IMG/VR virus record: IMGVR_UViG_3300028782_000004
Location: 1 to 38,844 of that record
Direction: 5' to 3' (one strand)
Origin: a virus
Length of the DNA: 38,844 nt
The notes below the pieces were generated by a model. It was not told the DNA's origin, ran no database searches, and worked only from the letters and a program-made list of their open reading frames with translations. Positions 16,231 through 34,385 of the stretch are shown piece after piece. How positions within the stretch are numbered: position 1 is the first letter of the stretch; every line of letters starts with the position of its first letter. The translations under genes were made by a program, and so were the position numbers.

Positions 16231-17730
16231 TCAGGACGTTCTCGACCAGATTACCGTCCGACGTTTCGTAGGGATAACCTTGGCTCTGGTTGTGGTAATC
16301 TTAACGAGATCGGGGGCGAAGCTGATCGCTAAGGAGTCGGCGCGGTCCGGCGACTTACCTCCATTCTTCTTCATGTCCTTCTTGCTCTGCAACGAGATCC
16401 TGAACCGGTCGTCGTGGCCGTAGTCCAGACTCGTGAGCTGGTTGCTCAGGTCGTCCTCGTCCGGGATCTGCCCGCTCTCCAGCCACTCCCGCATCTTGCC
16501 CCAGCACTCGCTGCGCTGGTTGCGGTACTGCTTGTCGTCGCTCGCCGGCACGCCCCACTGAATCGGCATCAGGTGCGGTAGGCCCTGCATGCGGCGCAGC
16601 GCCGAGTCCAAGTCCGCTCCGTTGCCGATGGCGTCGTACGCGATGCACGAGATCGGCCCCTCCTTGCGGCACAGCTCGAACACGCGGCCGGCCAGGTCCA
16701 CGCCGTCGAAGCCTTGCAAGGCCACCTGCAGCAGGACCTTGAGGCCTTGCCGGATCGTGATGACCGACGAGTCGTCCCCGAAGCGGGCCGGGTCGATCGC
16801 CATGATCTTCGGGTATGCGCGGTAGGTCTCCGGTTTGAGCCGGCGGCGGCGGGCGTTGAACACCAGCTCGGGCGAGATGAAGTTGCTGTAGCCGGCCCGC
16901 GGGAACATACCCTTGACGTGCACCCGCACGAAGTCCGAGTCCTCCCCCTCCTCGTCGATCCACGCCTGGATCTCCTCCTTGTTCGTGAAGCTCACCTCGC
17001 GGCTGTCTACCCGGGTCACGACGTTGCGGTTGGGCTTCGTGCACCGGTTGAAGAACATCCCGGACGTGCGCGTCGGGTTGCCGTAGCGCAGCCACAGGAT
17101 CTGAGTGCGGGCGTCCGTGAGGGTCCCGCGCATGCCCTCCCAGATCTTGTCGCTGATAGCAGACGCCTCGTCGAAGATCACGATCAGCCGCTTGCCCTGG
17201 TTGTGCAGGCCGTTGAACGACTCGGTGTTCGACTCGCTCCACGGGATTGCATCCACCCGCCACGCCTTCTCCCGCACCTTGTCGTTGGCGATGTAGATGC
17301 TGGTGGCTGTGAAGGTGAACAGGTCCCTGGCGATGAAGAGCTGGTGCCACTTGCTCAACTCCGCCCACGTCTTGGTCCGGAGTTGCGAGTCGGTGTTGGC
17401 GGTCACCACGCCGCGGGTGTCCTTGTGGGTGCTGACCGACCACAGGATAAGCCACGACACCAGCGCCGACTTGCCGACCCCGCGGCCGGCCACCGTGTCC
17501 TCCTCGATCACGCAGCCCTGTGCGGGACTGGCGGCTCCCGCGCGCAGGCGCTCACCGATGCGCTTGAGCTGCGCCTCCTGCCACGGCTGCGGGCCGGCCT
17601 GGTCTTCGAGCGAGGTCCCGAACTCACCCCACGGGAACGCCCACATCACGAAGCCGTAAGGGTCGTTGCAATACCGCTCCAGCCCGTCCATCACGCGGTC
17701 CAGGGCGGTACCTTCAATGGCGGCGTTCAT
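16231..17730 (-). CDS. terL: Terminase large subunit, 499 aa
   Basis: Packaging motor ATPase and nuclease. Walker A AGRGVGKSA (about 81-89), Walker B RLIVIFDEASA (about 181-191), and the nuclease signature IMAIDPARFGDDSS (309-322, D313) with CIAYDAIGNGADLD (362-375, D366) and a C-terminal DRADSLAISF. The start is ATG 17730, with AGGAG five bases upstream; the longer open frame to a TTG at 17850 adds about 40 Pro/Arg residues and is not believed. The C-terminal codons (16231-16310) look less GC-rich, possibly from conversion by the adjacent HNH gene. Works with the small subunit two genes upstream. Confidence 0.95.
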   Translation of the reverse strand: MNAAIEGTALDRVMDGLERYCNDPYGFVMWAFPWGEFGTSLEDQAGPQPWQEAQLKRIGERLRAGAASPAQGCVIEEDTVAGRGVGKSALVSWLILWSVSTHKDTRGVVTANTDSQLRTKTWAELSKWHQLFIARDLFTFTATSIYIANDKVREKAWRVDAIPWSESNTESFNGLHNQGKRLIVIFDEASAISDKIWEGMRGTLTDARTQILWLRYGNPTRTSGMFFNRCTKPNRNVVTRVDSREVSFTNKEEIQAWIDEEGEDSDFVRVHVKGMFPRAGYSNFISPELVFNARRRRLKPETYRAYPKIMAIDPARFGDDSSVITIRQGLKVLLQVALQGFDGVDLAGRVFELCRKEGPISCIAYDAIGNGADLDSALRRMQGLPHLMPIQWGVPASDDKQYRNQRSECWGKMREWLESGQIPDEDDLSNQLTSLDYGHDDRFRISLQSKKDMKKNGGKSPDRADSLAISFAPDLVKITTTRAKVIPTKRRTVIWSRTS

Positions 17731-17772
17731 GGCGTCTCCTGGACGGATCGGGACTCTGCATTGGGGTGGGGG

Positions 17773-17823
17773 AGCCCGTACGGTCGTGATGCCGGCCGGT
17801 AGGCCAGGCAGCCGTACGGGGCT
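17773..17823 (-). promoter_or_regulatory. Large imperfect inverted repeat before terL
   Basis: AGCCCGTACGG (17773-17783) and CCGTACGGGGCT (17812-17823) pair with one bulged base around a GC-rich inner hairpin. It lies in the 109-bp gap before terL. It has no U-tract, so attenuation, mRNA stability or a protein-binding role are all possible. Confidence 0.45.
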
Positions 17824-17839
17824 GGCATTGATGGTCCCT

Positions 17840-18094
17840 TTAGTAGCCAATTCCCTTGCCTTGGTACGAGGCTTCCTCCAGCAGGTCCTCGGCCATGTCC
17901 GCGGTGGTGCCCTCCGGCGGTTCCGCAGCCAACTGCGAGCGCACGCGGCCGGTGGCCAGGCTGACGGCGAGGGTGTTGCCGACGCCGGTGGCCTTGGCTC
18001 GGAAGTCGGCGGCCGGTTGCAGTTCGGCGACGTGGGTGGCGCCGTGCGGGGTGGGAGTGAAGTTCGGGCTGCGCTTGCTGTAGTTGCAGGTCAT
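17840..18094 (-). CDS. Hypothetical protein between terminase subunits, 84 aa
   Basis: Starts MTCNYSKRSPNFTPTPHG at ATG 18094, with a CGGAG site upstream, and ends EEASYQGKGIGY. Hydrophilic and without visible motif. Its position between small and large terminase genes suggests a packaging accessory, but nothing in the sequence proves it. Confidence 0.7.
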   Translation of the reverse strand: MTCNYSKRSPNFTPTPHGATHVAELQPAADFRAKATGVGNTLAVSLATGRVRSQLAAEPPEGTTADMAEDLLEEASYQGKGIGY

Positions 18095-18133
18095 GGCGGT
18101 GTGCTCCGGAGTTGGGGACCGTAGGGGAGAGGG

Positions 18134-18874
18134 TCAGGACCCGTAGTCTACGGCCCTGGGCTCGCGGATGACTGCATCCTCGATAGGCTGCGCTGGGGCA
18201 GTGCCGTGCATCCGCTTCTGGGCCCGGTCGAGCCGATCGGCCAGGGCGCTGGCGAGCGCGTTCACGCCGTCGCCCTCGTCGCCCACCAACTTGAAGTGCT
18301 TGGCCAGCAGGGTGAGGGCCGACATCCGGTCCGACATCCGCAGCTTCTTGACGCTGGTCACGCTGCGCATGCCCTCGGTCAGCGTGCGCTCCACCTTCGT
18401 CTCCACGTCCACCGACGAGATCGCCATGGCCGTGTCGTCGTCGAGCTGGTTGATCGGCACCATTCCACCCTCGTCGTCGAACGCCCGGCGGATGTCCGCG
18501 AAGGCGATTCGACCAATGGCGTGCATCACCTTGCCGGCGGTTATGTCCGCGGCAGCGAGGCGTTCTTGCGTCTTCTTCGCGATTGCGGCCTGGAGGCGCG
18601 GGTCACTGCTGCAGCGGTCGATAGGCAGTACCGTCTTGCGGGCGACTATCTCGGCGGCCTGCAACTCCAGGTTGCCCCGTGCGGAGATGCGCTCGGCGTA
18701 CTCGGCGGTCTCCTCCTCGACGCGCTGGAGCCGCTGCTCGGCATCCGGGTCTCCGGCTGCTGCTGCCCGCTCTGCGGTGGCCCGCTTCCGGATGATATTG
18801 CCGCTTTTGGCAGGCTTTTTCACCGGGGGACGCTTCGGAAGTAGCGATTTGAGGTGGGCAGCAATATCGTCCAT
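18134..18874 (-). CDS. terS: Terminase small subunit, 246 aa
   Basis: The Terminase_2-type core is clear: MHAIGRIAFADIRRAF (about residues 116-131) followed by DDDTAMAISSVDVETK (about 146-161) and a KLRMSDRMSALTLLAKHF segment (about 179-196). A basic/Ala N-terminal region with a helical arm (AERAAAAGDPDAEQRLQR) would provide DNA binding; the subunit recognises the packaging site and recruits TerL. No Shine-Dalgarno precedes ATG 18874; the upstream DNA is AT-rich and palindromic. First gene of the late operon. Confidence 0.9.
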   Translation of the reverse strand: MDDIAAHLKSLLPKRPPVKKPAKSGNIIRKRATAERAAAAGDPDAEQRLQRVEEETAEYAERISARGNLELQAAEIVARKTVLPIDRCSSDPRLQAAIAKKTQERLAAADITAGKVMHAIGRIAFADIRRAFDDEGGMVPINQLDDDTAMAISSVDVETKVERTLTEGMRSVTSVKKLRMSDRMSALTLLAKHFKLVGDEGDGVNALASALADRLDRAQKRMHGTAPAQPIEDAVIREPRAVDYGS

Positions 18875-19493: not shown

Positions 19494-19510
19494 CTGGCAC
19501 GAGTCATGCA
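19494..19510 (+). promoter_or_regulatory. Sigma-54-like promoter P1
   Basis: CTGGCACGAGTCATGCA has GG (19496-19497) and GC (19508-19509) exactly 10 bases apart and differs from the RpoN consensus YTGGCACGRNNNTTGCW at one position. It lies 36 bases before the first small gene. Confidence 0.6.
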
Positions 19511-19725: not shown

Positions 19726-19742
19726 TTGGCACGGCCTTTGCT
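19726..19742 (+). promoter_or_regulatory. Sigma-54-like promoter P2, perfect consensus
   Basis: TTGGCACGGCCTTTGCT begins on the base after the previous stop codon and matches YTGGCACGRNNNTTGCW at every position, GG 19728-19729 and GC 19740-19741. Predicted start of transcription is near 19753, about 20 bases before the next ATG. Confidence 0.75.
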
Positions 19743-19926: not shown

Positions 19927-19943
19927 TTGGCACGATCCCTGCT
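19927..19943 (+). promoter_or_regulatory. Sigma-54-like promoter P3
   Basis: TTGGCACGATCCCTGCT starts immediately after the preceding TGA; GG 19929-19930, GC 19941-19942, spacing 10. One mismatch (C for T in TTGC). The downstream TCTCTACTCTCATTCAACC is shared with P2. Confidence 0.7.
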
Positions 19944-20212: not shown

Positions 20213-20229
20213 TTGGCACGATCCCTGCT
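20213..20229 (+). promoter_or_regulatory. Sigma-54-like promoter P4
   Basis: TTGGCACGATCCCTGCT, one base after the preceding TAG; GG 20215-20216 and GC 20227-20228, spacing 10; identical to P3 through the -12. Confidence 0.7.
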
Positions 20230-21697: not shown

Positions 21698-21714
21698 CTG
21701 GCACGATCCCTGCT
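21698..21714 (+). promoter_or_regulatory. Sigma-54-like promoter P6
   Basis: CTGGCACGATCCCTGCT, one base after the preceding TGA; GG 21700-21701 and GC 21712-21713, spacing 10, same as P3/P4 apart from the first base. Precedes a five-gene overlapping operon. Confidence 0.7.
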
Positions 21715-22896: not shown

Positions 22897-23078
22897 GTCC
22901 CGACCCGGCCCCCGCCCCCACATGCGCGCCCGTCCGGCTGGTGCTGGACTTCTACCCCCGGGCCCCCGACACGGTAGAGGTGGTGATCGTTGCCGTTGAC
23001 GGCTCCGCTGCGTGCACGCTGACCTTCGGTTCCGTGCTCTGGGTTGAATCTGCAAAATTCTGCAAGGACACTAAGTGA
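22893..23078 (+). CDS. Small hypothetical protein, 61 aa
   Basis: MSPDPAPAPTCAPVRLVLDF then hydrophobic beta-like segments (VEVVIVAVDGSAACTLTFGS) and a FCKDTK tail. Start overlaps the previous stop (ATGA); its stop is shared with the next GTG. Possibly a small barrel; unknown. Confidence 0.6.
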   Translation: MSPDPAPAPTCAPVRLVLDFYPRAPDTVEVVIVAVDGSAACTLTFGSVLWVESAKFCKDTK

Positions 23079-23329
23079 GTAAGCGCACACGAACTATTAA
23101 GGCTGTGCTCCGGTCCATGAACCCGTGGGTCGTCGATTTCCGGGCCGTAGAGGCTCCCGCGAGCCGTCAAGCCACCACCCTACCGACCTACGCCGAATGT
23201 GCTGCTGTGTGCCCTCCTGGGTGGGTTCTTGAGCATGTCTCAGGGCGGTGGCAGGCCCGACACATGAACGATCCGCCACAAACAGCCAAACGGCCGGGTG
23301 GGCGGAGCCAAAATGCACCAAATCGGTGA
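23075..23329 (+). CDS. Small basic protein, 84 aa
   Basis: GTG start at 23075 overlapping TGA as GTGA. Basic N-terminus (SKRTRTIKAVLRSMNPWV), middle CAAVCPPGWVLEHVSGRW, disordered Lys/Arg tail (KRPGGRSQNAPNR). The WVLEHVSGRW segment suggests a small domain. The stop lies two bases before the large inverted repeat. Could bind DNA by charge, not shown. Confidence 0.6.
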   Translation: MSKRTRTIKAVLRSMNPWVVDFRAVEAPASRQATTLPTYAECAAVCPPGWVLEHVSGRWQARHMNDPPQTAKRPGGRSQNAPNR

Positions 23330-23330
23330 A

Positions 23331-23479
23331 TGTCGGGTTGGTTTTAGCTTTTAGCCCCTTACAGCCTATCGCGTCATGCGGGAAAAATTCAAACGTTATT
23401 TCTGTTACAAATATATTTCCAAATTCTCTTACGCAATACGCGGAGGTGTAAACGCTTGAAAGCTAAACCCAACCCGACA
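23331..23479. repeat. 149-bp AT-rich segment bounded by 21-bp inverted repeats
   Basis: Left arm 23331-23351 (TGTCGGGTTGGTTTTAGCTT plus T) and right arm 23459-23479 (the reverse complement, with one mismatch) enclose 107 bp that are much more AT-rich than the flanks, including ATATATTTCC and TTATTTC tracts. No gene fits inside. The arms start TGT and end ACA. No flanking target duplication is obvious. Candidates are a replication origin or cruciform, a MITE-like insertion, or a regulatory/terminator structure. Confidence 0.8.
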
Positions 23480-23596: not shown

Positions 23597-24070
23597 ATGC
23601 CTTCACGCATCACCCTCGACCAGCTCCTAGCCCACGGTGCCTGCCAACCTCAAGTTGCACTTTTCCGCAAGCACTTCCCGACCGGTTCGGCCTTGGTCAC
23701 CCCTGCCGCCTGCCTCGCTCTCGCCTCGGTGTTTGACTTCGGGTGGGCGGCAAACAACCTGCTGACCGGCACCGCGCGGACCCAGTACGACGCCGCACGC
23801 AGCACCGCGCGGACCCAGTACGACGCCGCACGCAGCACCGCGCGGGCTCAGTACGCCGCCGCATGCGACACCGCGCGGGCTCAGTACGCCGCCGCATGCG
23901 ACACCGCGTGGGCCCAGTACGACGCCGCACGCAGCACCGCGGGGGCCCAGTACGACGCCGCACGCAGCACCGCGCAGACCCAGTACCAAGCCGCAGTCGC
24001 CCCCACGCTGGCCCAGTACCAAGCCGCAGTCGCTGTAGCATTCGCTGACGCCTACCTCTCGCAACCTTGA
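23597..24070 (+). CDS. 11-residue-repeat protein, 157 aa
   Basis: MPSRITLDQLLAHGACQPQV forms a short globular N-terminus; residues 59-146 are eight tandem 11-residue units based on TARTQYDAARS (33-bp DNA repeats, 23771-24034). The repeats are helical hendecads (AxxxYxAAxxx) and should form a rod or coiled coil; similar Ala/Tyr repeat proteins occur in many phages of unknown role. Internal slippage would change length in units of 11 residues. First gene after the inverted repeat. Confidence 0.75.
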   Translation: MPSRITLDQLLAHGACQPQVALFRKHFPTGSALVTPAACLALASVFDFGWAANNLLTGTARTQYDAARSTARTQYDAARSTARAQYAAACDTARAQYAAACDTAWAQYDAARSTAGAQYDAARSTAQTQYQAAVAPTLAQYQAAVAVAFADAYLSQP

Positions 24071-26309: not shown

Positions 26310-26741
26310 GTGAGCCGCAAGTCTTGCCGCCGCAGGCACGTCACGCCACTTCCACCGCCCGGCATGCGCCCGAAGCTCACCCGCTCGCAGGTGCGCGATT
26401 TGGGGCTCACGCACGCGGTCAACCTGGACGCTATCGCGCGGGGTTCCGCTGACGAGGCCACGATGTGGCAGTTCGTTGGCGGTGTGTACACGTGGGCCCG
26501 AGTCGCCCACCTTCTCCAGGTGGGCGTGCCGGAGATGGACGCTCAGGTAGCGGTTGCCCGCCGACTCGTGACCCGCTACTGGAACACCGGCAAGGTCGGC
26601 TTCAGCGGCCCGGACTACCAAGCCGCACGCACGGGGCTGCAAGTCATGGATGAATTGATTACCATCGTGGGCCTGCCCACCGCGATGCTTGCGTCTGAGT
26701 GGGCAGAGCAAATAACCAACGAATTGAAAGGATCATCGTGA
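26310..26741 (+). CDS. Conserved phage protein of unknown function, 143 aa
   Basis: GTG 26310 directly after TAG. The sequence VTPLPPPGMRPKLTRSQVRD with LGLTHAVNLDAIARGSADEA and a long C-terminal helical region is a pattern I recognise from many Burkholderia/Pseudomonas-type phage genomes. All-alpha soluble protein, basic N-terminus (SRKSCRRRH). Function unknown. Shares its stop with the following GTG. Confidence 0.8.
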   Translation: MSRKSCRRRHVTPLPPPGMRPKLTRSQVRDLGLTHAVNLDAIARGSADEATMWQFVGGVYTWARVAHLLQVGVPEMDAQVAVARRLVTRYWNTGKVGFSGPDYQAARTGLQVMDELITIVGLPTAMLASEWAEQITNELKGSS

Positions 26742-27556
26742 GCACCCTTACCCCTGAACAAACCCAAGCCATCATCCAGCGCCTTGCTGCCCAGACCAAC
26801 ATCCCTTACGGCCTGGGCGACAAGCACGAGGCGTGCAGCGTTGCTGCAATAAACCTCGCCTTGACTGGTCAACTGACCGACTCCGTGCCTCCCTGCATGT
26901 CGGAGGTCATCGGGCGTTGGATCATCGCGACGCAGGACGCCATGCCTGCCACCTTGCGCAACAGCATTGAGTGGCGGGCCTTGCTACCCCAGGCCGCAGG
27001 CACGGGACGCGACCCGGCTGCAGAGCGCAGGCGGCTTGAGGTGCTCCTCACGCACATGTGGGAGGTGGCTCTACCGATGGTGCAACCAACAGCCGACAGG
27101 TACGGCTTCGGCCCCGAGTGGCAAACCATGTGCCGCCTCCGCACGCCTGAGGCGGCGGCGCGGGCGGCGCGGGCGGCGCGGGCGGCGCGGGCGGCGCGGG
27201 CGGCGCGGGCGGCGCGGGCGACGGAGGCGGCGGCGGCGACGGAGGCGGCGGCGGCGGCGGCGGCGGCGCGGGCGGCGGCGGCGGCGTGGGCGGCAGAGGC
27301 GGCGTGGGCGGAGGCGGAGGCGGAGGCGGCGTGGGCGGAGGCGGCGGAGGCGGCGTGGGCGGAGGCGGCGTGGGCGGCGGAGGCGGCGTGGGCGTGGGCG
27401 GCGGAGGCGGCGTGGGCGGAGGCGGCGGAGGCGGCGTGGGCGGAGGCGGCGGAGGCGGCGTGGGCGGCGGCGGCGGCGGCGGAGGCGGCGGAGGCGGCGT
27501 GGGCGTGGGTCGAGCTCGACCCCGTAGGCTTGCTGCGTAAGCTCGTGGCAGCTTGA
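26738..27556 (+). CDS. Low-complexity Ala/Glu/Trp-rich protein, 272 aa
   Basis: GTG start at 26738 (GTGA overlap). Residues 1-135 look like an ordinary helical domain (TPEQTQAIIQRLAAQ, MSEVIGRWIIATQDAMPA). From about residue 136 the frame reads ARAARAARAAR then AWAEAAEAAWAEA units, encoded by a long GGC/GGCG repeat (27150-27510), and ends WVELDPVGLLRKLVAA. The repeat part probably forms a long helix. Frame choice: the start overlap and normal N-terminal half fix it; other frames of the repeat are artefacts. Confidence 0.7.
   Translation: MSTLTPEQTQAIIQRLAAQTNIPYGLGDKHEACSVAAINLALTGQLTDSVPPCMSEVIGRWIIATQDAMPATLRNSIEWRALLPQAAGTGRDPAAERRRLEVLLTHMWEVALPMVQPTADRYGFGPEWQTMCRLRTPEAAARAARAARAARAARAARAARATEAAAATEAAAAAAAARAAAAAWAAEAAWAEAEAEAAWAEAAEAAWAEAAWAAEAAWAWAAEAAWAEAAEAAWAEAAEAAWAAAAAAEAAEAAWAWVELDPVGLLRKLVAA
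27150..27510 (+). repeat. GGC-rich microsatellite-like tract
   Basis: About 360 bp of GGCGGCGCGG, GGCGGAGGCGG and GGCGTGGGCGG units with almost no C/T balance on the plus strand. Encodes the Ala/Trp/Glu repeats. Many G-runs allow G-quadruplex or R-loop formation, and slippage would vary the protein length. Confidence 0.8.
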
Positions 27557-28814: not shown

Positions 28815-28851
28815 GAAGCCCGCGCAGCGCTACCAACGCTGTGCGGGCTTC
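28815..28851 (+). terminator. Strong hairpin, probable terminator of the accessory cluster
   Basis: GAAGCCCGCGCAGCG and CGCTGTGCGGGCTTC form a 15-bp stem (one G-U) with a 7-base loop, in the 143-bp gap before the HNH gene. The downstream T-run is poor, so termination may be partial or Rho-assisted. Confidence 0.65.
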
Positions 28852-28876
28852 TGACCACTCTGCGAGGACACGCACC

Positions 28877-29392
28877 ATGGCTACTGCCGATTCTCTCACC
28901 GCCGCTCGGTTGCGTGAGGTTCTCTCCTACGATCCGGACACAGGAATTTTCACTTGGCAGGTCAACACAGGACCAAGGGCGAAGGTTGGGGCTGTCGCTG
29001 GGACACTTGACGGGGGTGGGTACGTTAGGATCAAGGTGGACGGGCGCAAATACGGCGCGCACCGCCTCGCATGGTTGTTTGTCTTCGACGTGTGGCCAGA
29101 GACCGGAGTCGATCACCGCGATGGTGTCGGATCGAACAACCGGATCAAGAACCTGCGGCTCGCTACCCAGGCGTTGAACATGCAGAACCAGAGGAAGGCA
29201 CGTTCAAACAGCAAGTGCGGCCTGCTCGGTGTGAGCCCAAACGGGAATCTGTGGAAGGCCAGGATCGTGGTGGACGGGGTGCACGAGTACCTCGGGACGT
29301 TCACCACCCCCGAGCTAGCACATGCCGCATACCTGGCAGCCAAGGCGCTCTACCATCCGTTTCAAACCCTCGTCACTCCGGCAGGAGCCTGA
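28877..29392 (+). CDS. HNH-AP2 homing endonuclease, 171 aa
   Basis: Start at ATG 28877 after GAGGACACGCACC. An N-terminal YDPDTGIFTWQV segment leads to the HNH_3-type core YGAHRLAWLFVFDVWPETGV plus DHRDGVGSNN (H and N residues at about 54-90), then a C-terminal AP2-like DNA-binding domain (GLLGVSPNGNLWKARIVVDG ... TTPELAHAAYLAAK). A free-standing mobile endonuclease; its 3' end overlaps the opposing helicase gene by 20 bases. Self-spreading element of phages, not required for phage growth. Confidence 0.88.
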   Translation: MATADSLTAARLREVLSYDPDTGIFTWQVNTGPRAKVGAVAGTLDGGGYVRIKVDGRKYGAHRLAWLFVFDVWPETGVDHRDGVGSNNRIKNLRLATQALNMQNQRKARSNSKCGLLGVSPNGNLWKARIVVDGVHEYLGTFTTPELAHAAYLAAKALYHPFQTLVTPAGA

Positions 29393-30938
29393 TCCCTTCG
29401 ACGCGCAGCACGTCGCGGCGGCCACCACCTTCGACTGAGGCTTTGCCGTGCGTGAATCGGCAACCTGGGACTGCCCGGCGAAGCTCCGCGGCAAACTTCT
29501 GGCGGCTCATCACGTAGACGCCCGACTCCTTGCACCAACTGCTGTACGTCGGGTACAAGCCCCCACCCATACCGCCGGGCTCGGTCAGTAGCTCCGTCCA
29601 TCCTTGAGTCCCGCCAGTCCCCTCCCCTCCTCTTGTTACGGCACTCTGGTCCACCTCGCAGCATTCGGACACGAACGCCTTCACGCGGTCCTGCTCGGCC
29701 TGGTACTCGGCCTTGGCGGCCAGCACCACCGAGGGCGGCCGCAGCCCGGTCTCAAACCACTCGCGAGCGCCAGCCACGATCCAGGCCAGCACGCCCTCAA
29801 GCTCCTCGCGGCGCGCGAGCTTGGCGGCCAGGTCCTGATCCTTGAGCCACTGTGTCTCACCCGTGGCTACCTGGTCCTCGGTACCGAAGAGCTGCAGGTA
29901 TGGCACCAACAACACCCGCCGCCAGATTCCATGATCTTGACCTTTTATGACAGGTTTGAAGTTGGTCATCAACTGCAACTTGTGGGTGGGAGTGAACTCG
30001 AAGAAGTCCTGATTCATGTACCGGGCCTTGATTTTGTCGTCCCCGGTCACACCCTTGATGAACGCCTCGCGCAGCGTCATGCCGTCCCCGGTCTCCTTGG
30101 CGGTGACCATACGCCGGCCCTTCAGGTCCGCGATCTCGGTGGGGTGGCGGCTATCGCCGTCGCCTCGCGAGTCGGCCATCAGGCCGGGCGCGGCCGCACC
30201 GGCGTACTCACCCAGCGCCCGCTCTATGGTGCTCATGACCAGCGACTTGCCGTTCGACCCCTTGCCCCAGTGCACGACGAATGCCTGCTCGCGCACGCTG
30301 CCAGTGGCGCAGTACCCGAACCATCGTTGCAAGAACCCGACCAGCGCTGCGTCCCCGCCCGCGATCTGCCCGAGCACGGTCTCCCACAGCACGCTTCGGG
30401 CTTCGGGCTTGTAGTCCAGGTCCGTCAGCTTGGTGATGAGGTCCTCGGAGCGGTGCTCGCGCAGAGCGCCGGTGCGCAGGTCCACAGTGCCGTTGCGGCA
30501 GTTCAGCAGCCACGGGTCGCGGTCCATCACCTCGATGTCCACGGTCAACATTTTGCGGAGCAGGCCCACCGCGGCGTCGATGCGCGGCTTCATCTCGCAC
30601 TCGCGAGCCCAGGCCCGCAAGGCGTCGGCGCTCTCCTCCTCCCACGGCTTGGCCTTGGCCGCCTCGCGCTCGGCGCGCTCGGCCAGGGTCACGGCCTTGC
30701 GAGCCTGGTGTCGGGCCTCAGTGGCAGCCTTGCGGGCCAGCGTGGCCGCAGCCTTGGCCTCGACCGTCTTCTCGACCCCGGCCTTAGCCACCGCGGTCGC
30801 GGCGATGCCCTCCAGCCGGTCGGCGGTGGCCAGCAGGTTGCCGGCACGTTCGGTTGCAGCCTCCGCGACCTCGGCCAGCTCGCTGCGGCTGGCCTCGTAC
30901 TCGGCTCGGACCTTGGTGTCGTCGGTGGCGGTGGTCAC
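29373..30938 (-). CDS. SF3/D5-type replicative helicase, 521 aa
   Basis: GTG start at 30938, overlapping the DUF3850 stop as GTGA; the ORF continues upstream in frame but is shadow sequence. Residues about 1-115 are an unusual charged Ala/Glu/Arg coiled coil. Then comes the D5_N/helicase part: DPWLLNCRNGTVDLRTGALR (141-160), Walker A GKGSNGKS (225-232), GRRMVTAKE as Walker B (274-282), motif C LQLMTNFKPVI (321-331) and the IWRRVLLVPY arginine-finger region (338-347). The protein would form a ring helicase at the replication fork. It lacks the primase part, which is encoded separately 1.6 kb upstream. Confidence 0.9.
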   Translation of the reverse strand: MTTATDDTKVRAEYEASRSELAEVAEAATERAGNLLATADRLEGIAATAVAKAGVEKTVEAKAAATLARKAATEARHQARKAVTLAERAEREAAKAKPWEEESADALRAWARECEMKPRIDAAVGLLRKMLTVDIEVMDRDPWLLNCRNGTVDLRTGALREHRSEDLITKLTDLDYKPEARSVLWETVLGQIAGGDAALVGFLQRWFGYCATGSVREQAFVVHWGKGSNGKSLVMSTIERALGEYAGAAAPGLMADSRGDGDSRHPTEIADLKGRRMVTAKETGDGMTLREAFIKGVTGDDKIKARYMNQDFFEFTPTHKLQLMTNFKPVIKGQDHGIWRRVLLVPYLQLFGTEDQVATGETQWLKDQDLAAKLARREELEGVLAWIVAGAREWFETGLRPPSVVLAAKAEYQAEQDRVKAFVSECCEVDQSAVTRGGEGTGGTQGWTELLTEPGGMGGGLYPTYSSWCKESGVYVMSRQKFAAELRRAVPGCRFTHGKASVEGGGRRDVLRVEGIRLLPE

Positions 30939-31195
30939 GTCAAAGTCCTCACGCTCATCCAGGGCCCGAGCCCCAAGCCGATGTACCCTGGCCGGAGCCC
31001 AGGCGCCCCGGGGCTCAGGAGGTAGGTCACCTCGCGCAGGCACTCGCGGCCGGTGTAGGCGGCCTCCATGGGGCACCACTCACGCAGGTGGAGCACGTCA
31101 CCCTTCTGGTAGTTGCGGTCATTGAGCCGCAACTCGAAGGGCTTGACGTAGAGGTCGTTGAAGTACCTGGACCAGCACTTGAGTTCGTGCTTCAT
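30935..31195 (-). CDS. DUF3850 (ASCH/PUA-like) protein, 86 aa
   Basis: HELKCWSRYFNDLYVKPFEL + RLNDRNYQKGDVLHLREWCP + YTGRECLREVTYLLSPGAPG match the DUF3850 family, an ASCH/PUA-like fold with the F-E-x-R-x-N-D-R core. Such small proteins are frequent in phages and are suspected to bind RNA or modified nucleotides; function unproven. AGGAG precedes ATG 31195. It lies directly upstream of the helicase. Confidence 0.85.
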   Translation of the reverse strand: MKHELKCWSRYFNDLYVKPFELRLNDRNYQKGDVLHLREWCPMEAAYTGRECLREVTYLLSPGAPGLRPGYIGLGLGPWMSVRTLT

Positions 31196-32111: not shown

Positions 32112-32561
32112 TCAATGCGTTACAGGTTTAAAGGCCCAGGCCTTGGCAAACAAAACAGCCACGCCCTTTTCTAATTCTCTCTTGATGGCATCCTGCGCCA
32201 GAATTGCGCGCTGACCGGCGGCATGTACCGCGATGGCGGCTCCGCGATGCGTGTCCGGCCCGGCGTCGTCCGGAGGTATGGCAGCAGCCACTTCGGCCTC
32301 AAAGCGAACCGATACTTGGGCCATACCTGAGCGAAACGCTTCTGAGAGTCTGTCCAGATCATTAGAAAAAGGGTCTTTGGCATAGAACGGCAGGGTCCGA
32401 AACGCCCACCCCCAGTCTACGAAGCCCGCCAGTTCAATGCAGGATTCTTCGTTCACTTCGGTAATCTGGATTGGGCCCCGGCTTTCCAGTTCAGCCAATA
32501 GCTCTTCCCGATTGCTCGCTTGACACACCACAGCAAGACGGTTCAACGTTACGGTGTTCAC
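32112..32561 (-). CDS. Hypothetical protein, 149 aa
   Basis: GTG start at 32561 overlapping the primase TGA, with AAGGAG inside the primase 3' end. N-terminal beta-alpha part (NRLAVVCQASNREELLAELE), aromatic middle (DWGWAFRTLPFYAKDPFSND), helical Ala-rich end. First of the genes inserted between primase and helicase. No family recognised. Confidence 0.75.
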   Translation of the reverse strand: MNTVTLNRLAVVCQASNREELLAELESRGPIQITEVNEESCIELAGFVDWGWAFRTLPFYAKDPFSNDLDRLSEAFRSGMAQVSVRFEAEVAAAIPPDDAGPDTHRGAAIAVHAAGQRAILAQDAIKRELEKGVAVLFAKAWAFKPVTH

Positions 32562-33850
32562 TCAGTTTTCTCCTTCGCTCGTTGCAACAACACGCGCGCC
32601 TCGTCCCCGACGATGCGGGAGAGTTGACACGCGTACCTGTAGATTCCTGCCTCGTCCAGCGCCCAGCGCTTGCCGTCGTCGATATACCACTTGTCGCCTG
32701 CACACAGCGCCCGGTGACCGTAGGCCTTGACCAGCCTGTTGGCATTGGCTTGGTCCGTGGTCTTGTGCTCGGCCGCCGGAACACCGCGGCGCCTGACCGG
32801 TGCGGCACTCTCCGCCACCCCAGCATCTTCAACCCCTTCGCCTTCCTCGGTCAACACCGAGAACGCGCTGTCGTCCAGCGGCTCCTGCCACCCGTTGCCG
32901 CGGGCCATGGCCATGATCGTGTTGCCGGTGATCGGCTGCGCGTGGTCGCTGCGCACGAACGGCCACACCCGCTCACGCAGGAAGTCCAAGTCGGCCTTCG
33001 CGGATCGGGCGCTGAACTCCTCGACGATGGACAGGCCCTCCGGGCTGCCCCCGGTCTCGTAGTGGACGGCGAACACCACGTTGCGCCAGGCGTCGTAGTC
33101 CAGAGTCGCGGTGCCCGAGTTGGGGATCGCGTCCAGCGCCAGCATCCACGGCGTATCACGCTCCGCGGAGCGGGCCACGAGGCCGCGCTGGTGCTCAGGC
33201 CTCTCGACCACCGGCACGGGCGGGGACATGGGCCAGTGCATCCCGACCACCGACTCGCGGGGTACGATCTCCAGGATGCCGCTCAACTCCTCGAACTGCA
33301 GGAGTTCGGACTTGCCTGCGAGGGGCAGGATGAACTGGTTGCCGAAGCCATCCGGGGCCACGGCATCCTGCTTCGGGAACACCTCCACCTGTCCGGCGCT
33401 GACGCTCTTCACACCCGGCCGCAAGCCGCAGGACCTGAGCACCTCGGCCAACCACGTGCGCACGCTGTAGGCGTCCTGCGGGTCGTCCCAGAGGACGTAG
33501 AGGTGCACCCCGCGGCCACCGGTGGAGCGGAACAGCACCGGCACCGCGCCGTGGCACAACTCCAGCGCGCTGGCCACCAGCCACACGGTGTGGCTCATGG
33601 TCGCCCAGTTGGTCTCACCCTTGTGGCTGTCGAAGTCGAGCAGCCCGAGCATGGTGACCGACTCGCCGGCCTTGATGGGGCAGACCCCGCGGGCAGGACC
33701 TCCGTTGTAATGTTTGGCCAGGCGCTCAGGGGTCAGGGCCTGCTTGGTCCACGCCTGCAGCCCATCCAGCCGGCGGACCGCGGTCACGTCGGTGCGCACC
33801 CGGCTGGTGATGGGCTCCAGCGCAGCAATGAGTGGGTTGTCGGGGGTCAC
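32558..33850 (-). CDS. Archaeo-eukaryotic-type DNA primase with PriCT-2 and partial D5_N, 430 aa
   Basis: AEP-type primase core: HYNGGPARGVCPI (about 47-59), catalytic TMLGLLDFDSHKG (D72, D74), RSTGGRGVHLYVLW (H116) and GNQFILPLAGKS. A PriCT-2-like segment follows (ALDAIPNSGTATLDYDAWRN, about 248-267). The C-terminus (AYGHRALCAGDKWYIDDGKR ... ) is the beginning of a D5_N helicase domain that stops abruptly. Start is taken as GTG 33850, four bases after the ligase stop; ATG 33880 is an alternative. Lays primers for phage replication, working with the separate helicase at 29373-30938. Confidence 0.88.
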   Translation of the reverse strand: MTPDNPLIAALEPITSRVRTDVTAVRRLDGLQAWTKQALTPERLAKHYNGGPARGVCPIKAGESVTMLGLLDFDSHKGETNWATMSHTVWLVASALELCHGAVPVLFRSTGGRGVHLYVLWDDPQDAYSVRTWLAEVLRSCGLRPGVKSVSAGQVEVFPKQDAVAPDGFGNQFILPLAGKSELLQFEELSGILEIVPRESVVGMHWPMSPPVPVVERPEHQRGLVARSAERDTPWMLALDAIPNSGTATLDYDAWRNVVFAVHYETGGSPEGLSIVEEFSARSAKADLDFLRERVWPFVRSDHAQPITGNTIMAMARGNGWQEPLDDSAFSVLTEEGEGVEDAGVAESAAPVRRRGVPAAEHKTTDQANANRLVKAYGHRALCAGDKWYIDDGKRWALDEAGIYRYACQLSRIVGDEARVLLQRAKEKTE

Positions 33851-33854
33851 CCAC

Positions 33855-34385
33855 TCACACCTTCGACTTCGGTTCTGCATCCTTGTCCAGCGTCTTCTTG
33901 AAGTAGATGCGCGCCGCGGTGTGGTAGATCATGATGCCTTCCGCCTTCGCCGAATAGGCCGCGTAACTGCCGGTGTCTTTCAGGTCAGCCAGCACGCGAT
34001 CAACCACGCCCGTGTCGAACAACCCCTCCCAGAGAACCGGCACCACCGAGCAGCAAGCCGGAGGTGGCGTCTCCGCGGTCCAACGGCTGACGTTGAAGAG
34101 CGAGAACCTGCGCTCGGTGAGCCCGTAGCCGCGCTGGATGCCTCGACCCCACCACTCGCCGAAGTGGCGGCCTGGCCCGAGCGCCCGGAGTTCGCCCTCG
34201 TGCTCTTTCACCCACGCCGCGAACCCGAAGTTGTCGTCCTCGGGCGTGATCCAGCGAGTGCGGGACCCGGCGCTGATGGTGCCATCTTCACCCACGCAGA
34301 CCTGGGCGTTGGTGCCGTCGATCTTCTCGGTGATTACGACTTGCCGGCTGAGCCGGGCGATCTTGCCAAACGATTCAAATTCCAC
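33855..34385 (-). CDS. RNA ligase (Rnl2/DRB0094 type), 176 aa
   Basis: Nucleotidyltransferase motifs are in order: motif I TEKIDGTNAQ (Lys21 would be adenylated), motif III FGEWWGRGIQRGYG (75-88), motif IV AEGIMIY and motif V ARIYFKKTL. This is an ATP-dependent RNA ligase fold, shorter than T4 Rnl2 and without extra domain. Start is GTG 34385 with AAGGAG six bases upstream; longer frames are not believed. It could repair RNA broken by host anticodon nucleases. Overlaps the primase ATG alternative. Confidence 0.88.
   Translation of the reverse strand: MEFESFGKIARLSRQVVITEKIDGTNAQVCVGEDGTISAGSRTRWITPEDDNFGFAAWVKEHEGELRALGPGRHFGEWWGRGIQRGYGLTERRFSLFNVSRWTAETPPPACCSVVPVLWEGLFDTGVVDRVLADLKDTGSYAAYSAKAEGIMIYHTAARIYFKKTLDKDAEPKSKV

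Follow-up and report, generated by a model that had tools for sequence, protein, structure and literature searches.

The 149 bp palindrome at positions 23331–23479 of the viral record IMGVR_UViG_3300028782_000004 raises the question of what such an element does in a phage genome. The stretch of DNA analysed, positions 1–38,844 of this record, is termed the window. For most environmental phages, the origin of replication is not known. The initial annotation of the element left three interpretations side by side: a replication origin, a MITE-like mobile remnant, or a long RNA hairpin that insulates an RpoN-like operon from the genes downstream. The analysis supports the first and not the second, and for the third, 89 relatives of the element display no sense-strand excess of G-U pairs. 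The element is proposed, with a probability of roughly 0.7, to be a displaced and atypical stem-loop replication origin of the phage, without being a proven member of the family of stem-loops described below.

The phage and its replication genes

The phage is podovirus-like, with genes for an internal virion protein, a head-tail adaptor and a terminase whose relatives include those of Pseudomonas phage AF and epsilon15. The element is found, identical in sequence, at 17993–18141 of IMGVR_UViG_3300028872_000001, a near-identical genome of 60,583 bp (99.8% identity over 31.9 kb). The type of replicon considered here is defined by an AEP primase, an SF3/D5 helicase and a C-terminal Pox_D5-type domain, and all are encoded in the window (Table 1).

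The primase-helicase is split in this phage (29373–33880, − strand), with the AEP/PriCT_2 protein and the D5 helicase ∼1.5 kb apart and small open reading frames between them. It is a single open reading frame in relatives such as G012 (936 aa); the split is also seen in L129, which is 93% identical. Two other open reading frames on the + strand, 23597–24070 and 26744–27556, are both highly repetitive in sequence. One has an 11-residue repeat of the ARTQYDAARST type and one a very GC-rich Ala/Trp/Glu low-complexity run.

Table 1. Coordinates of the element, its parts and the genes discussed, as positions in the window
Feature	Position	Strand	Remarks
Imperfect palindrome, proposed displaced stem-loop replication origin	23331..23479	.	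149 bp, self-complementary over full length; design common to elements behind D5 genes of relatives
Left terminal arm TGTCGGGTTGGTTTTAGCTTT	23331..23351	+	Starts TGTCGGGTTG, also the start of the L137 iteron arms
Right terminal arm, reverse complement TGTCGGGTTGGGTTTAGCTTT	23459..23479	-	20/21 to left arm
AT-rich, partly self-complementary interior, proposed unwinding region	23352..23458	.	From composition; inner pairing z -1.5 (+), -3.2 (-)
Terminase large subunit, reference point	16231..17850	-	Element 5.5 kb upstream; 4.1–8.8 kb in relatives
HNH endonuclease, overlaps 3′ end of D5 gene	28841..29392	+	Relatives carry the proposed origin element at that place
D5-type SF3 helicase, proposed initiator	29373..31079	-	Pfam D5_N, DUF5906, Pox_D5 (PF08706, PF19263, PF03288); PHROG DNA primase
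Archaeo-eukaryotic primase (AEP) with PriCT_2	32558..33880	-	PF22548, PF08707; separate open reading frame here, helicase-fused in relatives such as G012

Structure of the 149 bp element

The terminal inverted repeats of 21 bp are as first described: the arms match at 20 of 21 positions and read TGT at one end and ACA at the other. The hairpin pairing, however, runs inward past these arms, a point on which the initial annotation needs correction. Ungapped extension of the arms gives 33 nt with 82% complementarity, and the whole element is 69% identical to its own reverse complement over the full length. It is the top-scoring inverted repeat in the window and, in the near-identical 60.6 kb genome, the sole long inverted repeat with an AT-rich interior. 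Single strands fold into one long hairpin of −56.4 (+) and −63.3 (−) kcal/mol; these energies lie at z −7.5 and −8.6 relative to shuffled sequences, and none of 200 shuffles equals them. The contrast between an AT-rich interior and GC-rich flanks is borne out by GC contents of 0.40 and 0.61, respectively.

The element lies directly behind a stop codon, as annotated, with a gap of one base rather than two, since the open reading frame 23075–23329 ends at 23329. A further 117 bp separate the element from the open reading frame that starts at 23597. The arms begin with TGTCGGGTTG, a start shared, one base in, by the arms of the element at locus L137, and TGTCGGGT is common to the window arms and L135.

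Inverted repeats in related phages

A set of 80 terminase relatives was fetched. One long inverted repeat with an AT-rich interior is found in each of G006, G009 (L028), G012, G014, L027 and L032, at 4.1–8.8 kb from the terminase gene and on the same side of it as in the window. No such repeat was found in the scanned stretches of G015, G010 and G019. The D5 gene is immediately followed by the repeat in G006, G014 and L032; in G009 the gene preceding the repeat encodes a primase whose helicase part is different.

The association with the D5 gene was assessed in loci gathered from viral contigs and bacterial genomes. A repeat was counted as adjacent if it scored ≥50, spanned 85–180 bp and was found in windows whose start lay between −20 and +60 relative to the D5 stop codon. 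By this measure the D5 stop is followed by an inverted repeat, mostly of ∼90–160 bp, in 91 of 135 distinct loci from phages and prophages. In control sets, that score was reached 4 times among 649 positions picked at random within these loci and 6 times among 1230 stops that end other open reading frames of ≥200 aa; at a score of 60 the counts are 78/135 for D5 stops, 0/649 and 2/1230. A covariance model detects adjacent elements in L135, L139, L148 and L153 (40–54 bits) that the repeat scan missed or scored low, and therefore 91/135 is a lower bound. Loci on genome contigs that have the repeat come from Roseomonas, Rhodobacteraceae, Planctomycetota and others; thus the association of D5 gene and repeat is broad. 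It is not universal, as phiC31, Sebastisaurus and Lactobacillus phage CL2 display no repeat behind the primase gene.

Several related structures were also observed. In G009 and G005 the helicase part of the primase is of another kind, which by eye resembles VirE/VapE, and an inverted repeat lies behind this gene too; the G005 match is weak (E 0.067). G008 has an inverted repeat in the same region. The repeats of this group are at L116:11458–11607, L126:14601–14739 and L109:10041–10201. The unit CTGTCACCCC is present in G009 and G008, and the G009 iterons encode the protein end VTPVTPVTPE. A near-perfect 71 bp GC-rich palindrome is present in G006 at 26360–26430 (L112:6360–6430), just upstream of the primase reading frame.

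A DNA element or a structured RNA

The arms of the relatives' elements consist of tandem units of 8–10 bp, for example TGTCCCGCGTGTCCCGCC, TGTCACCTAAGTCACCTA and GTGTCGGGTTGTCGGGTC, and 82% of the elements pass a test for tandem units, compared with 2.8% of shuffled arms. The arm unit differs from phage to phage with inverted symmetry kept, and all 11 of 11 consensus pairs show changes on both sides. A blastn-type search with the 149 bp against 26 related records gave no match, as would be expected from arm sequences that change between relatives. Members of the close clade have a conserved inner-stem sequence, TTTTCCTATT...AATAGGAAAA. Interiors are self-complementary beyond chance (median z −2.8, 89 elements).

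Over all 93 elements, arm sequence is correlated with D5 protein identity (Mantel rho 0.27, 0/500 permutations). No such co-variation was seen in the close clade of 20 (129/1000), and for this reason it was set aside as evidence of specificity.

A sense RNA would lead one to expect a difference between the two strands. Fold energies of the two strands do not differ significantly in the relatives (p 0.09), and in the sense strand of the 89 distinct relatives G-U pairs are rarer than A-C (220 versus 268). These observations favour a DNA element on which protein sites face each other.

The RpoN-like operon of the initial annotation is real as a motif. Sigma-54-type −24/−12 boxes are present on the + strand at 19726–19742, 19927–19943, 20213–20229 and 21698–21714, with a weaker one at 19494. 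The pattern TTGGCACG-N4-YTGCTTCTC has seven matches where 1.95 are expected, each ∼20–40 bp ahead of a start codon. The corresponding region of the terminase relative L029 (64% identical) has its own set of boxes, TGGCACGCTCCCTGCATGTACTAG. Host RpoN may serve the phage in the expression of small early genes. A role of the element as sigma-54 enhancer was rejected: it is ∼1.6 kb downstream of the last box, and relatives that have the element, such as G006, G012 and L032, lack such repeated boxes.

An RNA function has some basis. The element is within a run of + strand genes downstream of the boxes and its fold is very stable on both strands, so that a long hairpin in the early transcript could be cut by RNase III, or could protect mRNA ends, and so separate the genes with sigma-54-type promoters from those downstream. 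This is unlikely, given that the relatives have no sense-strand advantage and that a tie to one gene, D5, across unrelated contexts suits an initiator site better than mRNA processing. In addition, the element matches no Rfam family, two sub-threshold matches to microRNA precursors reflecting hairpin shape only, and neither a tRNA or tmRNA nor an intrinsic terminator is present at the element.

The window copy compared with its relatives

The element in the window departs from the family in location and in arm structure. The adjacency scan found no inverted repeat next to the D5 stop codon of the window. The sole candidate found is the 149 bp element, which is not directly behind the helicase gene but 5.9 kb from the D5 stop, toward the terminase. 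Its length agrees with the long stem-loops of ∼90–160 bp, at the longer end, exceeding most of them. The tandem score of its arms is 4, close to the mean of shuffled arms (3.5) and below the family mean (7.1). A covariance model built from 19 relatives recovers the exact boundaries of the element at 10.3 bits (E 0.58), which is not above noise. As there is no clear tandem unit and the model score is this low, the element is best described as an atypical displaced variant. Displacement is also seen in G012, whose element has arms with the TGCACCT unit known from the adjacent elements of relatives.

These departures bear on whether the element is a former origin, now decayed, or some other protein-binding palindrome with a regulatory or partition-like role, while replication starts at some other site of the genome. 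Arms lacking tandem iterons, a displaced location and a lack of recognition by the family model would all agree with this reading. However, the pairing is preserved over its long extent, the element is unchanged in both of the near-identical genomes, and no other candidate emerged from inverted-repeat scans or, within the window, from the covariance model; we consider a decayed or unrelated palindrome rather improbable. GC skew, proposed earlier as a marker of the origin, was uninformative.

Relation to MITE-like elements

MITE-like elements such as ERIC and Correia resemble the 149 bp element in size, imperfect palindromic structure and terminal inverted repeats. Exact-pattern scans with the arms, which would overlook diverged copies, found no other occurrence in viral contigs or bacterial genome contigs; blastn of the element gave nothing in plasmids and, in phages, only one 24 bp chance match. 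The search for further copies in phage and host genomes that the initial annotation had called for was thus negative, and the flanking sequences, GGTGAA and CCAAGT, show no target-site duplication. Insertion of a mobile remnant between two phage genes, which the TGT-starting repeats and an AT-rich interior unlike the flanks had suggested, is therefore highly improbable, the more so as the analogous elements of relatives differ in sequence and keep a fixed gene neighbourhood.

Precedents for a stem-loop origin

Two lines of evidence support reading the element as a replication origin: in most of the relatives examined an element of the same design directly follows the primase-helicase gene, and there is an experimental precedent. 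In the archaeal plasmid pRN1, a stem-loop of ∼100 bp behind the primase-helicase gene orf904 has been shown experimentally to be the origin, and it functions when relocated (Berkner et al., 2014, PMC4234260). pRN1 is described as having no iterons (PMC4234260). Both systems have a long stem-loop and an AEP primase with an SF3 helicase, and the tolerance to relocation in pRN1 is comparable to the displaced copy here. They differ in that the window copy is a candidate of 149 bp, and in that primase and helicase are separate proteins in this phage.

The same type of stem-loop origin has been proposed for the Bordetella phages BIP-1/BPP-1 (PMC4234260). These are also podoviruses with an AEP/PriCT_2/SF3 primase gene near the terminase. 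Our scan of BPP-1 revealed a 104 bp inverted repeat with tandem arms at 26607–26710, one small gene from the primase, which is a candidate counterpart of that proposed stem-loop (PMC4234260). The BPP-1 arms have clear tandem units, TTGCCTCGTTTGCCTCG, whereas the window arms do not.

The origin of phage P4, with its alpha protein, and the SaPI origins present a further likeness, in that a helicase-type initiator recognises repeats near an AT-rich region. P4 alpha binds repeats (PMC4234260). Alpha differs in having a Toprim primase domain, and the likeness drawn here is one of description.

Proposed mechanism and significance

By analogy with pRN1 and P4, initiator binding, melting and priming may be envisaged as follows. 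The D5-type SF3 helicase, which has a C-terminal Pox_D5 domain and would act jointly with the AEP, is predicted to bind the GC-rich inverted arms as a pair of sites that face each other. A helicase ring might then be assembled on each side of the element, and the AT-rich self-complementary interior would be melted or extruded. The primase would lay the first primers in the interior and two forks would leave the site. We infer that this phage starts replication at the displaced, iteron-poor copy.

A broader proposal, to which we give even odds, is that a widespread class of hairpin origins is common to phages and prophages with D5-type primase-helicases. Variable facing outer iterons would provide initiator specificity; in the window clade they flank the conserved inner stem TTTTCCTATT...AATAGGAAAA. 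The origin would normally stay fixed at the 3′ end of its initiator gene, and in lineages such as this phage and G012 it would have been uncoupled and moved by several kb, the initiator gene being split in the phage described here.

With an iteron-armed inverted repeat behind the primase-helicase gene in about two-thirds of the distinct D5-type loci sampled, the origin may be predictable from sequence in many such phages. The design would extend from a single archaeal plasmid, where it has been demonstrated, and one group of Bordetella phages, where it has been proposed, to a large set. The displaced copy offers a natural test of whether an origin must adjoin its initiator gene.
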